Shown here: positions 5,912-48,505 of the stretch, one piece after another
Position numbering within the stretch: the first letter of the stretch is position 1
Layout of the letters: each line of letters opens with the position of its first letter
Source: Gottfriedia acidiceleris
Lineage (GTDB): Bacteria; Bacillota; Bacilli; Bacillales; Bacillaceae_G
Length of the DNA: 64,000 bases
Assembly (NCBI RefSeq): GCF_002128425.1
Contig: NZ_NESS01000004.1
Coordinates: 186,001-250,000 of the forward strand
Reading direction: 5' to 3'
Notes under the pieces: generated by a model
Databases searched by the model: none
Seen by the model: the letters and a program-made list of their open reading frames with translations, nothing else
What the model was told of the DNA's origin: nothing
Made by a program: the position numbers and the translations under genes

Positions 5912-5943
5912 AAAAAAGACTGCTAACAAATATGCTAGCAGCC
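5912..5943 (-). terminator. terminator of the cold-shock gene
   Basis: On the reverse strand the stem CTGCTAGC / GTTAGCAG is followed by TTTTTTATTTT, directly after the csp stop codon. Confidence 0.8.
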
Positions 5944-5966
5944 CTTTATTCACTCAGAAGTGAAAA

Positions 5967-6167
5967 TTATAATTTAACTACGTTTTCAGCTTGAGCGCCA
6001 CGGTTACCTTGAGTGATCTCAAAGCTTACTTTTTGGCCTTCTTCAAGAGATTTGAAACCTTCGCCTTGGATAGCTGAGAAATGTACGAATACATCGTCTC
6101 CACCTTCAACAGCGATGAATCCGAAACCTTTTTCTGCATTAAACCATTTAACTGTACCTGTGTTCAT
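5967..6167 (-). CDS. cold-shock protein, CspA/CspB family
   Basis: 66-residue single-domain nucleic-acid chaperone that melts RNA secondary structure at low temperature. The RNA-binding motifs KGFGFI and VFVHF are both intact, and the length is standard. The start is ATG 6167 (MNTGTVKWF), placed by TGGAGG 8 bases upstream, and not the in-frame ATG at 6182. The intergenic region upstream leaves room for the long 5' leader typical of csp genes. A TATAAT-like -10 on the reverse strand at 6302-6307 would give a leader of about 130 bases. Which Csp paralogue this is cannot be decided. Confidence 0.95.
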
Positions 6168-6400
6168 TGTACGAACCTCCATTTATTCCTGTTTTTTTAC
6201 ACTTAATGAGTATTGTTAAGAAAAAATACACACATTAGAACAGGATGAAAATTCGTCCCTTTTAACACATGAATTGAATTAACCAATATATTAAGTATGT
6301 CATTATAATAACACAGAATGAAATGAAAAACAAATTGCGCACGAAGAATAATTAAATTTAATTAATTTAATATAAAAAATGAACTTATTTTTACTTTTCG
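6168..6400 (-). promoter_or_regulatory. putative csp promoter and long leader
   Basis: AT-rich region upstream of the cold-shock gene with TATAAT on the reverse strand at 6302-6307. No clear -35 box at ideal spacing was found. Long structured leaders are usual for csp mRNAs; here that is inferred only from length. Confidence 0.35.
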
Positions 6401-6588: not shown

Positions 6589-6720
6589 AGACGAATTCTA
6601 CAAAAATCTAAAGAATTTTTTTAAAAAATCATTCCTTTCTTTTTAAATTTCGTATGTTTTTATATATTTTGGTTGAAACTATGAGGATTTTACATATAAA
6701 AAGATTGATGTGTTGAATTT

Positions 6721-6880
6721 ATTGCGATTTGGTGCTTTTTTATTGCGATTCTCGAAATATAATTGCGATTCACCTTTTTTATTTGCGTTCCTAAGTTTTA
6801 TAGCGATTTACCTTTTTATTTACTATTCCTTAATTTTAATGCGATTCCAAAACCTTAACTACGACTAAATAAAACAATCT
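6721..6880 (+). repeat. degenerate array, 20-bp period, TTGCGATT core (array 1)
   Basis: About eight units recur at spacings of 18-21 bases: cores at 6724, 6745, 6765, 6785, 6803, about 6822, 6841 and 6861. The unit is roughly TATTGCGATT followed by a variable stretch and TTTT. The array lies just upstream of ywqB. A closely related array occurs at 47821-48050. It is non-coding, since frames are broken, and units are contiguous with no unique spacers. Confidence 0.75.
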
Positions 6881-6975
6881 AGGTCAACTTTCACTTTTTC
6901 CCTTTTCGGCTATGTGTATCGTATTTGTTTAGGGTATAATTACCAATAAGAATGTTTCGAGTAAGGAGGCATCGA

Positions 6976-8607
6976 ATGCTTCAGCGTGATTTAAGTAAAG
7001 ATATTATTTATGAACTTTCATATTCACTTTTTTCAAAGCTTTCTCCCCAAAATACTAGGGATGCGGAGCTTGTCGAAGCTGGCCTGCAGTTGTATCGAAT
7101 GGGTCAAGTATATAATGTATCGGTTCGCGAAGGTCGACTTGTTGGTGTTGTCGAAGAAGGCGATCATATTCATTTACCAATTTTACATATTGAAAACCAT
7201 GATCAAAATGGATGTGATTGCTACGAAGCTCCACCATGCCAACATCAAATTGCACTACTTTGCTATGCTGCCGCTTCATTTTCTTTAGTCGGAGATATAA
7301 TGAGGAAGTTTAAGCAGTCTTCTTTAAAAAGTATCCCAAATATCATGACTGGTCGCCAACTGCTAGATCAAATGAGTATGTTTGAGCAGGATCGACCGAA
7401 AGAGACAGTGGCGTTGTTTGAGAAAAAGTATGAGGAGTATATTGAACAGCAAAGGACGTCATTTTACCAGGATGTTTATTTTGTTTATCCATTATATGAA
7501 CGGTTTTATCATGGATTATTGAATCAACAACCACGTCAAGAAAAAGAAAAGCTTCAATACCAGTTACTTGCGTCAATTTTTACAATGAATAAAATGGTCG
7601 GACAAATAGAAATTCAAAGTACAGTATACGACAATGCGCATTTACCGCGCGAAATGACAATGTTAGAAAATCAAATTGAAGCAGTTAGTAGGCAATTACA
7701 TAATCTAACTGGAGGTTCAGTTTCTACTCAGTATGAAGAGGTTCTTCGTGAGCAGTTGCAAGCTCTTTTATTAGAAAGAAATCTTTGTTTAATTCCTCGA
7801 TATAACTCTTTTCGTCATGTTTATAAAGAGCTATTAAATAATCCAAAGATTTTATATAAGGATTTAGAAACTTTATCAAAGGTTGAGGACAATTATTATG
7901 CGAATTTAGGAAAAGCTCATCTATATTATTTATTAAAAGAAGATGAAACAATGTTGTCCATTATAAAGCAATACAGCAATAATGAACGTACTCTTTATTG
8001 CTATACTTACTGGATAGAAATTCTTCGAAAAAACAATGAAACAGAACGTCTAACATTATTTTTGCCATTATATTACGAGATGCTTTTACACTTTTTAAAA
8101 AATGGCGATGATGAATATGCAAAAACTACTTTTGCGAAACATTTCCTTACTAATTATGAGTATAATAGTTTTTACATTAATGAAACAGCTGGTCTAGAAG
8201 TAGTTTATCAAGCATTACTTCCATATAGTGTGATGCAGTATACTGATTACTTAATGCATAATCGAGAATATAATCGATGGGCTGAGTTGCAAATGTACTT
8301 ATATTCTTACAATCCTGATTACATTGATAAACATGATCTTCAGGAGGTACATAAGTACTCACCTCAATCTGTATTACCTATATATCACCACTTAGTTCTT
8401 TATTACATTGAATTAAAAGGCCGAGCAAACTATAAAATAGCTGTTCGATATTTAAAAAAACTAAGAACAAATTATAAAAAATTAAAGCGTATGAATGAGT
8501 GGGAAGACTATATTCAATATGTTGAATCTCAATTTATTCGTTTACGTGCACTTCAAGAGGAATTAAAGAAAGGAAAATTAGTCAATGAAGCGACTAGCAA
8601 ATCTTAG
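6976..8607 (+). CDS. ywqB: SWIM zinc-finger protein, YwqB-like
   Basis: About 543 residues. A SWIM zinc-binding motif near residues 80-92 reads CDCYEAPPCQH (CxC...CxH), the signature of this family. The rest is helical, with many paired basic and aromatic residues and no catalytic motif I recognise. SWIM proteins are usually found next to SNF2 helicases, as here: the helicase start overlaps this gene's end by 23 bases. The pair is adjacent in B. subtilis too (ywqB-ywqA), and a joint role in DNA repair or remodelling is inferred from that linkage. The start ATG 6976 is set by AAGGAGG; the in-frame ATG 6952 lies upstream of that site. Confidence 0.85.
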   Translation: MLQRDLSKDIIYELSYSLFSKLSPQNTRDAELVEAGLQLYRMGQVYNVSVREGRLVGVVEEGDHIHLPILHIENHDQNGCDCYEAPPCQHQIALLCYAAASFSLVGDIMRKFKQSSLKSIPNIMTGRQLLDQMSMFEQDRPKETVALFEKKYEEYIEQQRTSFYQDVYFVYPLYERFYHGLLNQQPRQEKEKLQYQLLASIFTMNKMVGQIEIQSTVYDNAHLPREMTMLENQIEAVSRQLHNLTGGSVSTQYEEVLREQLQALLLERNLCLIPRYNSFRHVYKELLNNPKILYKDLETLSKVEDNYYANLGKAHLYYLLKEDETMLSIIKQYSNNERTLYCYTYWIEILRKNNETERLTLFLPLYYEMLLHFLKNGDDEYAKTTFAKHFLTNYEYNSFYINETAGLEVVYQALLPYSVMQYTDYLMHNREYNRWAELQMYLYSYNPDYIDKHDLQEVHKYSPQSVLPIYHHLVLYYIELKGRANYKIAVRYLKKLRTNYKKLKRMNEWEDYIQYVESQFIRLRALQEELKKGKLVNEATSKS

Positions 8608-26576: not shown

Positions 26577-26714
26577 GTTAATAAGTCTAATTATGAAGTT
26601 AATAAAATATTTTTCTTGCATTTTTCTTTTTTACAAAATATAATCACACTACAAGCTTGTACGATGTATTAAAAACTTAAACTTAAAATTATTTCAGTCA
26701 TTATATATTTTTTG

Positions 26715-27026
26715 CGATGATGAAGAAGAGTAGATTATATGAAAGTTTCAGAGAGCTGACGGTTGGTGCAAGTCAGTACGGACATATTTTTGAATGGGCT
26801 TCTGAGCACCCAAACCGAACCATTTATTTATGCAGTAGGCTTTGGCGGACGTCTCACCGATAAAAGAGACAGGTATTCAAACTCATGTTTCGATACTGCT
26901 TTTTGTCACAAGGTAGTTCAATTCATTTGTTTTGATACTGTAAAGTGAGTCTAAACGTTTTTAGGCTAATTAAGGTGGCACCACGGGAGTCCTCGTCCTT
27001 TCTATAAGGCGGGGACTCTTTTTTTG
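26715..27026 (+). promoter_or_regulatory. T-box riboswitch
   Basis: tRNA-sensing leader. Stem I elements are present: the AGTA box near 26728, AGAGAGCTGACGGTTGGTG from 26751, and GAATGGGCTTCTGAGC from 26791. The T-box core TAAGGTGGCACCACG is at 26971-26985, and the terminator GGGAGTCC / GGGGACTC with a T7 tract is at 26985-27026. The variable base of the TGGN bulge is C, which pairs with tRNAs having discriminator G. In the specifier region GAATGGG, codon TGG (tryptophan) fits that discriminator; this assignment is inference. It controls the peptide-binding lipoprotein gene 28 bases downstream. Confidence 0.93.
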
Positions 27027-46037: not shown

Positions 46038-46658
46038 ATGAGCATAAAGAATAATCTTGACCCTCGTGTCATTCGAACTAGACAACTTTTACAAGATGCA
46101 TTAATTACTCTATTAGCTGATAATGAATTCGAATCGATTAGTGTTCAAGATATAACTAAAAAAGCAAATGTTAACCGAGCAACTTTTTATAGCCACTATG
46201 AAGACAAATACCAAATGATCCGCCAAATCGTTAGAGAAAAACTAGTGGATTTGGACAGCGCCATGAAGAATGCAGACTTTAGAATATATGACGGAAACTC
46301 GAACACACTTGATGAAATTGCCTTTCAATCCTACTTCCATCTATTCGAACATATTGAAAAAAACAGTTACTTCTACAAAGTCCTACTTAGAAGACAAGGG
46401 CCAAATATATTTAGAAGAAGACTTTATGAGGTGCTATCAACCACGTTCGAAAAGGGCATTCTATTCATACAACCGAAAAAGAATAAATATCTTGTTCCAG
46501 GTGACCTGCTTATAAGTTATATTTCTGGAGCCACTCTAAGCGTAATCTCATTTTGGGTTGAAAATGATATGCCATACACAAAAAAACAAATGGCAGAGTA
46601 CCTTTTAAAAATCTCAAGAAATGGAATTTTAACAACAGCGGGATTGGAGTTAAACTAA
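46038..46658 (+). CDS. TetR/AcrR-family transcription regulator
   Basis: 206 residues. N-terminal helix-turn-helix in SVQDITKKANVNRATFYSHY (about 34-53), the family recognition helix. The C-terminal ligand domain is variable. It is divergent from an EmrA/EmrB-like efflux pair, which it probably represses until a substrate binds. Start ATG 46038 with AAAGGAG. Its end overlaps the end of the broken NERD gene by 4 bases on the opposite strand. Confidence 0.9.
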   Translation: MSIKNNLDPRVIRTRQLLQDALITLLADNEFESISVQDITKKANVNRATFYSHYEDKYQMIRQIVREKLVDLDSAMKNADFRIYDGNSNTLDEIAFQSYFHLFEHIEKNSYFYKVLLRRQGPNIFRRRLYEVLSTTFEKGILFIQPKKNKYLVPGDLLISYISGATLSVISFWVENDMPYTKKQMAEYLLKISRNGILTTAGLELN

Positions 46659-47640
46659 CAAGAAGATTGCTGTGACAATTCGTCTAAATAGTGTGTTTTG
46701 TCTTTTTTTGGTCCTGATGATGGCAGGTTAAGTTTGCGAAGGTGTACTGAAGCTGAATAAATTGAAGATATATGTAGGAATTCGCGAAGTTGGCTATTTT
46801 GCATGGTATTTCCAATTAATAAATAAAAATCATATAACGATTGTAAATGAGCATCTTTTGAAACACAACAACAATGCGAACAATACCAAGAGCCCTTGGT
46901 TCTGACCATCGAATATAAATTGCAATTTTGACATATTACTCCAGTAAATAATTCGTTTTTTGCAATATTGTATTTTTCGAGTATATTTTGATCTAATAGT
47001 TGATTTTGCTTTATTCAAAGCTTTGCTAACTTACGATTTTCCTTATATGCATATAAATTTTTAGAATATTTTTTTTCGAGTTCTTCTATTTTCTTATAAA
47101 GCGAATCTGAATGAATAACCCTACTAGAAATCTCTTGGATATTGGTAGAAGCTTTTATAATAGATTTTGAATTACTTAATACAACAAGTGGAACTATTGG
47201 GTAATTCGAATACTTATATTGCACTAACAAATTGCGAAGTTTAAGCTTTTGCCGATCAATTTGAATTATTGGATTTATAAAGGCTTCTTCTTTCCCTTCA
47301 GTTTTACGAATAAGCTGATTAAAGCTTTGATCAAAATAAAGTGTTCCAACAAAATTCTTCTCTTCTATAATTAATAAAAGGCTTGGCGAAAGGATAATAG
47401 TATCGATCTGGAAAAAACGCTTTTCATTGTCTACTAGTCTTAAATCATGAATAATAATATACCTTTCCTTATTGAAAAAGCTCAAATGATAATCTAAAGA
47501 CTTTTCACCTTAATATCCAGCCTTAAACTTTGCGAATCCTCTTCTATTTTAACTCTTTGATTATAATCTACAGGGATTCTCTTCAATAAAGCTTCTAACT
47601 TCTTTATAGTAAGCGGAATAGATCTTTCTTTTAAAATCAT
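46655..47640 (-). pseudogene. NERD (nuclease-related) domain gene with zinc ribbon, disrupted
   Basis: A ribosome-binding site (TTGGAGG) and ATG at 47640 begin MILKERSIPLTIKKLEALLK. A frameshift near 47535 moves to a frame with a TAA at 47512-47510. The same frame continues as EKSLDYHLSFF, YIIIHDLRLVDNEKRFFQID, LIIEEKNFVGTLYF (NERD core), and then a TGA at 47017-47015. Reading continues as CQNCNLYSMVR and WYCSHC, a C-terminal zinc ribbon, to a final stop at 46655. NERD proteins are predicted nucleases of unknown role common in bacilli. Three disabling changes make this a true pseudogene more likely than a sequencing error. Confidence 0.85.
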
Positions 47641-47820
47641 TTAACCTCCAATCAAGATTTTAGAAAAGTTAAGTGAAATGTTGACTTTTCTAAAGTTTTT
47701 AAGCTGTTTAAAAGTAATTTAATCTGAACTTAGATAATTCTTTAATATGTGAATCTAAATCTAAAAAAATATGATGTTTTAAGTAATATTTTTGCTTAAT
47801 TTTAAAAAATAACGGTTTGT

Positions 47821-48050
47821 ATTTGCGACTTGTATGATTTTAATTGTGATTTCCTAGTTTTAATTGCGATTTGAGCTTTTTATTTGTGATTCTCAGATTT
47901 TATTTGCGATTCACTATTTTTATTTGCCATTTTCAATTTTTATTTGCGATTTGACTTTTTTAATTGCGATTTTTGATTTTTATTTACGAATCGAGATTTA
48001 ACTTGCGATTAGCCCATGTTTATTTGCACTCTTCAACGGATTATTGTCAA
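47821..48050 (+). repeat. 20-bp-period array, TTGCGATT core (array 2)
   Basis: About twelve units with almost exact 20-base spacing: unit starts at 47821, 47841, 47861, 47881, 47901, 47921, 47941, 47961, 47981, about 48000, 48020 and 48041. The consensus unit is about TATTTGCGAT followed by a variable 5-6 bases and TTTT. Variation is concentrated in the bases after TTGCGAT. Non-coding region between the broken NERD gene and the atpC terminator. Related to array 1 at 6721-6880 and in the same orientation. Confidence 0.85.
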
Positions 48051-48072
48051 TCCACATCAATTTGCAAAACAC

Positions 48073-48101
48073 AAAAAAAGAGCCCAACAAGGGCTCTTTT
48101 T
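48073..48101 (-). terminator. atp operon terminator
   Basis: aaagagccc / gggctcttt hairpin with T tracts on both sides, 3 bases past the atpC stop. Confidence 0.9.
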
Positions 48102-48103
48102 AA

Positions 48104-48505
48104 TTACTTATATTGTGCTACGTTTAAACGGTTCATTGCTTTGTGTAAAGCAAGTTCTGCACGTTTGATATCTGTGTCAGGGCGTCTGTCTTGTAGACGT
48201 TGTTCTGCACGTTTTTTTGCTTCTACTGCACGCTCAACGTCGATTTCAGTTGATGCTTCAGCAGATTGAGCCAATATTGTAACGGCTTCAGGTCGAATTT
48301 CAATGAATCCTCCACTAACTGCAACGTAATCTGTTCCAGCTGGTGATTTAATTTTAACAGGTGCTGTTGCTAACGGCGCCACAGTTGAAATGTGTCCTGG
48401 TAAAATACCTAGCTCACCGCTAGTTGCTTTCGTGCTAACGAATTCTGTTTCGCCTTCATAAGCCGGTCCATTAGGAGTGACGATACTGACTTTCATTGTC
48501 TTCAT
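48104..48505 (-). CDS. atpC: F1Fo ATP synthase subunit epsilon
   Basis: 133 residues. N-terminal beta sandwich ([34 protein letters not shown]) and C-terminal helical hairpin ([14 protein letters not shown]) are both present; it links F1 to the c-ring and inhibits ATP hydrolysis. Start ATG 48505 has CAGGAGGAG; an internal ATG lies 3 codons later. Last gene of the atp operon. Confidence 0.95.

Follow-up and report, generated by a model that had tools for sequence, protein, structure and literature searches.

The window analysed here, a stretch of 64,000 nucleotides from Gottfriedia acidiceleris, carries on its minus strand the atpC gene for the ATP synthase epsilon chain (PF02823/PF00401; 48104..48505). 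The 3′ end of this gene faces a tandem array of 11 units, each 19-21 bp long (47817..48037, minus strand), which is supported by TRF, by a unit profile and by lag identity. Between the two lies the intrinsic terminator of the atp operon, an 11-pair stem followed by a T tail (48075..48101, minus strand), the hairpin of which scores on the plus strand too. Read along the minus strand, the order is the atpC stop (48104), the hairpin with its T tail (48101-48075), about 40 bp, and then the array. On the far side, and outside the array, lies a gene with a NERD domain (PF08378; 47015..47485, minus strand); by eye its frame looks interrupted (window 46655-47640), and in relatives the start lies further upstream. 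The gap was initially described as holding no coding frame, which is correct in that no frame of 60 aa or longer extends across the array, but one 101-aa frame (47964-48269, plus strand) does enter it, running antisense into atpC.

A second array, of seven units, was detected by unit profile and TRF at 6716..6852 (minus strand). It sits in a divergent gap between a 71-aa cold-shock gene (5967-6182, minus strand) and a 551-aa frame (6952-8607, plus strand), and the same 551-aa gene is adjoined by an array in two relatives (G011 and G002). Two RNA elements in the window score above the Rfam gathering threshold, a T-box leader (26708-27003, plus strand) and a cspA thermoregulator (5914-6217, minus strand); they are the only ones in the window, and the array behind atpC has no match at that threshold.

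A regular array with a recurring core

On the transcript (minus) strand each unit of the atpC array consists of 5-6 free bases followed by AAYYGCAAWTAAAA, which on the plus strand reads as TTTTAWTTGYGATT followed by 5-6 free bases. TRF reports periods of 20, 40 and 60 at 47816-48010, and the unit profile chains the 11 units with a score of 159; the runners-up in the window and in 240 kb of two other genera are the second window array (67.6) and a next best hit of 15.5, with the profile having been trained partly on both window arrays. A test of lag identity, which is independent of the profile, gives 0.594 at lag 20 and 0.60 and 0.61 at lags 40 and 60; shuffles average 0.347, and the highest value that any of 1000 dinucleotide shuffles reaches at any lag from 12 to 60 is 0.484. 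The even spacing of about 20 bases claimed by the initial annotation is thereby borne out, and the first ten units follow each other at 21, 20, 20, 20, 20, 20, 20, 20 and 19 bp; the unit count was put slightly too high, at about twelve. That annotation also proposed counting the core and its spacing: the window contains 16 copies of TTGCGATT where 3.17 are expected, a number reached in 0 of 100 shuffles, and the spacing beats the shuffles as described. Its claim of a kept core stands insofar as a core recurs in the units, but the exact TTGCGATT appears just five times within the array, the remaining units having 1-2 or more mismatches. The observation of a repeat array at 47821-48050 is confirmed.

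Arrays of the same kind are dispersed over the genome. Window positions 47700-48150 have 29 BLAST matches in it (E≤0.001), a three-unit profile has 52, and the unit profile resolves 23 arrays of 2-24 units in 21 stretches, namely the window and 20 stretches taken around matches. Eight of 12 relatives in the genus match the atpC array; the other four (G001, G004, G008, G010) gave no match, so the ladders, as we call these arrays, are dispensable within the genus. Among named contigs, a two-core pattern was found in 20 stretches, all from strains of Gottfriedia luciferensis, G. acidiceleris or Bacillus sp.

Conservation of core, pitch and position in Gottfriedia

The 560 Gottfriedia units show which parts of the ladder are kept. 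Between neighbours exactly 20 bp apart (211 pairs), identity is 0.83-0.97 at core columns 11-13 and 15-18 and 0.51-0.79 at the looser remaining core columns, whereas the six free columns reach 0.24-0.46 against 0.27-0.37 expected from column make-up. In a held-out check, the sole ground for picking a pair was that its TAAA words lie 20 or 21 bp apart within array spans (257 pairs), and the CAA columns, which had no part in the picking, agree at 0.81-0.96 while the free columns agree at 0.24-0.43. Since the array spans themselves were found with the core profile, the core conservation is partly selected for, in the held-out check as well. The bases between the cores do vary freely, as first described, being at or little above chance. 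Core-to-core steps of up to 30 bp, measured without chaining (n=374), are mostly 20 bp (168) or 21 bp (147); 18 steps measure 19 bp, and 41 have other lengths (22 of them 18 bp). In Gottfriedia, hardly anything of the spacers' history has survived substitution, whereas the core has survived it and the pitch has hardly changed.

Position is conserved as well. The atpC ends of 13 genus genomes, chosen via atpC and independently of the presence of an array, carry one in 7 of the 11 relatives scanned with the profile (G003, G005, G006, G007, G009, G011 and G012). By eye, no array was seen at this place in G001, G002, G008 and G010, and G004 has a ladder of about five 20-bp units with another core, of GAATAAC type (L073 ~1960-2080). 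A DNA search with the GAATAAC-type ladder, run without a positive control, matched 0 of 299 genomes; pairs of GAATAAC words in G010 belong to a collagen-like coding repeat. Two subtypes can be told apart by eye in G005, G006 and G007, with YTGCAAWTAAA on the terminator side and ATCGCAAWTAAA farther away. The tree of the 13 Gottfriedia atpD-atpC stretches has one well-supported inner branch out of ten.

Over all loci covered, 13 of the 23 own arrays have a counterpart at the homologous position in one or more other Gottfriedia species, a count that is a lower bound from a selected sample because most loci were picked for holding arrays. Arrays at homologous places comprise 2-28 units and share their orientation in 32 of 32 labelled pairs, some genomes carrying two labels; equal orientation is also expected from plain inheritance. 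A motif-free periodicity scan reported no 20-bp array in G004, G008, G001, G016 and G027, its sole signal being one of 41 bp in G016, and it proved insensitive, as it also missed known arrays in 160 kb of G011. A stretch of G016 beside a terminator hairpin (L098 ~7900-8010) has a 20-21 bp periodicity with CCGAAAA-like words and is possibly another core type. Separate repeat signals appear at lag 52 in the intergenic stretches of the own genome (84 six-mer pairs) and at lag 53 in stretches of G016 (252 pairs).

Placement at gene 3′ ends and occurrence in eight genera

Placement was assessed for 69 arrays of three Gottfriedia genomes (23 from the own genome, 29 from G011 and 17 from G002). With mechanical gene calls, at least one gene 3′ end faces 66 of the 69. 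A co-oriented gene precedes 49, and in 36 of these its stop codon is no more than 102 bp away. Another 17 have the reverse orientation in a tandem gap, and 3 occupy divergent gaps; among array-free gaps that measure 250 bp or more, 30 of 140 are divergent. When frames down to 60 aa are admitted, divergent arrays rise to 5 of 70 and reversed ones fall to 13 of 70, the second window array being one that moves to the divergent class. Given this mixture (17 of 69 reversed, 3 to 5 divergent), orientation relative to the gene is not strict. In Gottfriedia, 34 of the 50 co-oriented arrays (11/16, 13/22 and 10/12 by genome) are separated from the stop codon by a hairpin terminator, and a terminator within 150 nt of the stop was found at 27 of 42 co-oriented array ends, 14 of 36 reversed ones and 90 of 204 array-free ends. 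The neighbouring genes are mixed (ATP synthase, aconitase, DegV, YqeY, an ABC transporter, a LacI-type regulator, cytochrome bd and others), and we accordingly rejected a function specific to a single type of gene. A replication-oriented signal was likewise not supported beyond gene polarity, as 36 of 46 arrays follow the leading strand and so do 248 of 329 frames with 100 aa or more from the same parts of two genomes; in convergent gaps, 16 of 18 arrays follow it.

Outside the genus we searched samples of larger groups under strict filters. The Gottfriedia profile matched 26 of 299 genomes of the order, in 11 of 116 genera, and a broader profile matched 26 of 398 genomes of the class, in 17 of 146 genera. 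Many matches of one or two units look like chance, and such weak matches (L202, L205-L214 and others) were excluded from the array counts. Ladders of at least four units, judged by eye, occur in eight genera (g1, g31, g55, g64, g69, g113, g160 and g173) of seven families. Their cores differ by lineage, among them GCAAATAAA and, in g64, GCCAATAAA, and their pitch is 20 or 21 bp, the 21-bp ladders including those with the cores GCCGATAAA (g173) and GCCAGTAAA (G110); in one genome (G363) as many as 22 units follow each other at exactly 20 bp. Because the search model selects for the core, shared ancestry and convergence are indistinguishable here. The step from core to core measures 20 or 21 bp in 89 of 90 cases from these lineages, and the free columns agree at 0.37-0.66 against 0.26-0.39 by chance, which points to recent duplication at work there. 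For arrays scoring at least 25, a co-oriented gene comes before 28 of 33, in G279 sometimes that of an inserted element; a terminator was detected before 13 of 28 co-oriented arrays, and in L187 and L203 its T tail runs directly into the first unit. In several arrays two units together form a higher-order repeat, 40 or 42 bp long (L192 1281-1720 and L200 1481-1771, also L041 and L043). A search of the literature, mostly without opening full texts, returned no description of these repeats.

What the ladders might be

Three options had been offered initially, namely a protein-binding ladder, a structured RNA and a product of replication slippage. We favour the first, because core and pitch are kept and homologous places are shared. 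That the core and its spacing persist while the intervening letters change is the look of binding sites at a fixed pitch, which slippage alone would not give, and it suggests that a protein grips the DNA. The array behind atpC could well be one of many dispersed one-faced ladders, bound by protein, that insulate gene 3′ ends, although we hold this reading with some reserve. Each unit of 20-21 bp carries one short core (here AAYYGCAAWTAAAA on the transcript strand), so that from one core to the next the helix makes two turns and the cores share almost the same face. A DNA-binding protein, the preferred core of which would change between lineages, might then bind side by side along the ladder, and a bound ladder just past a gene end would form an oriented, protected boundary. 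Such a boundary may stop polymerases that read through or run antisense, or may hold supercoils, and neighbouring transcription units would then disturb each other less. Most of the fully read arrays lie past a terminator, and a role at the level of DNA hence fits better than one in RNA. Several observations count against a protein-bound ladder: 40 of the 374 steps measure 18-19 bp, a pitch of 20 bp falls slightly short of two 10.5-bp turns, and just 13 of the 28 co-oriented arrays outside Gottfriedia have a detected terminator.

The most serious competitor is a neutral satellite, produced by slippage or unequal exchange in the slack DNA behind terminators and never removed, with the core as a relic of the ancestral unit. 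Slippage does account for the adding and removing of units, as in the higher-order repeats and in the range from 2 to 28 units at homologous places, and the absence of arrays from several species and the likeness of free columns outside Gottfriedia fit a satellite too. Neutral decay should, however, erode all columns and the pitch alike, and in Gottfriedia the free columns have nearly lost their likeness, yet the core and the 20/21-bp pitch remain; slippage, the third of the original options, leaves this core-only conservation unexplained. We therefore regard the satellite as unlikely, while the four of 12 relatives without a match are part of the reason why it keeps the weight it has beside protein binding. 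Even a neutral satellite would be one with core-only conservation, which itself needs explanation.

Action at the level of RNA, with an RNA-binding protein or small RNA using the array in read-through transcripts as a series of single-stranded sites, seems improbable to us. Repeated, unstructured A-rich sites would be accessible, and 49 of 69 arrays are read in the direction of the preceding gene, but the reversed arrays in tandem gaps and the terminators that precede most co-oriented arrays speak against it. A structured RNA, as had been proposed, finds no support: the transcript strand of the array folds worse than its shuffles (z +1.03), the other strand has no clear advantage over its shuffles (z -1.38, with 19 of 200 folding as well), and Rfam has no match. 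That the phased A-rich core simply bends the DNA is far less probable still. An A-rich run does recur in each unit, but in a wedge model of curvature the predicted end-to-end ratios of 26 arrays are not below those of shuffles (mean z +0.33), at 0.88-0.98 compared with 0.30 for a phased A-tract control.

About as improbable as the RNA reading is an origin in mobile elements, which would spread or maintain the ladders either because transposons land in them or because they belong to non-autonomous elements. The evidence for it comes from one genome and one genus only. G279 contains eight full copies of an IS256-family element (PF00872), six identical and two at 98%, and all eight lie inside arrays (L220-L227). 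By the profile, seven have units on both sides and one (L224) on the right side only, and seven insertions have a duplication of 8-10 bp that includes core bases; L221 has only 5 bp. With units on both sides, the element landed in pre-existing arrays and therefore uses them rather than makes them. In g64, a group of arrays (L166-L169, L178-L183, L193 and L218) opens with leaders that resemble each other, an imperfect inverted repeat around AACTGGAAAAAA...TTTCCAGTT, seen in 12 of 12 by eye and in 9 by regular expression; a shared leader of this kind would suit a mobile element. The arrays of the own genome and of its relatives, however, keep their places. Plasmids and phages gave no match by BLAST, a weak test as it masks simple repeats, and IMG/VR gave none to two exact patterns, likewise a weak test, limited to TCGC(N)AATAAA words 20 bp apart. 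No known mobile repeat family was found to cover the array, a point on which the initial annotation had made its own reading depend.

If the ladders are bound by protein, these bacteria would have an unrecognised system of 3′ boundaries and a DNA-binding protein whose recognition word varies from genus to genus at a constant two-turn pitch. It would then be possible to test insulation behind terminators directly, and intergenic DNA of a kind now blank in annotations would have an explanation. The Gottfriedia arrays combine a fixed pitch, a conserved core and a free spacer, features expected of a protein-binding ladder. Somewhat more tentatively than for the single array, we propose that such ladders may form an unnamed class of elements in Bacilli, in which oriented two-turn ladders at 3′ ends, with lineage-specific cores and a co-evolving protein, would mark the boundaries of transcription units, with a place like that of REP/BIME elements and an unrelated make-up.

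Known repeat systems resemble the ladders in part. CRISPR arrays are a regular alternation of kept and varying parts, and so are the ladders, but CRISPR was rejected: the free part of 5-6 bp in a 20-bp period is too short for spacers, in agreement with the initial annotation, and the arrays are many and dispersed. The iterons of plasmid origins are direct repeats about two helical turns apart that serve as sites for one protein. The ladders share the direct repeats and the two-turn pitch, and differ in lying at 23 or more chromosomal places without a plasmid match; we rejected iterons, as the window array lies behind atpC, the neighbours of the own arrays are mixed, and a replication initiator gene is not beside them. 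Group IIC introns and other elements insert just past intrinsic terminators, where the ladders are placed too; in contrast to such introns, the array has no coding capacity, and Rfam detects no intron RNA in the window. BIMEs occupy 3′ ends and bind DNA gyrase or IHF, and REP elements have a cognate tyrosine transposase. Like REP/BIME elements, the ladders are extragenic, arrayed and dispersed (23 arrays in the own-genome stretches) and lie mostly at gene 3′ ends. Unlike them, they occur in Bacilli rather than in Gram-negatives and consist of direct repeats of 20-21 bp that have neither a palindrome nor a stable fold, and the palindromic, hairpin-forming REP/BIME unit was rejected for this array on that ground and on its folding scores. 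A further likeness is that the ladders are used as targets by insertion sequences, as REP elements can be (PMC1525189). The element of G279, found in ladders only, offers an example from nature of an insertion that lands where it apparently does no harm.
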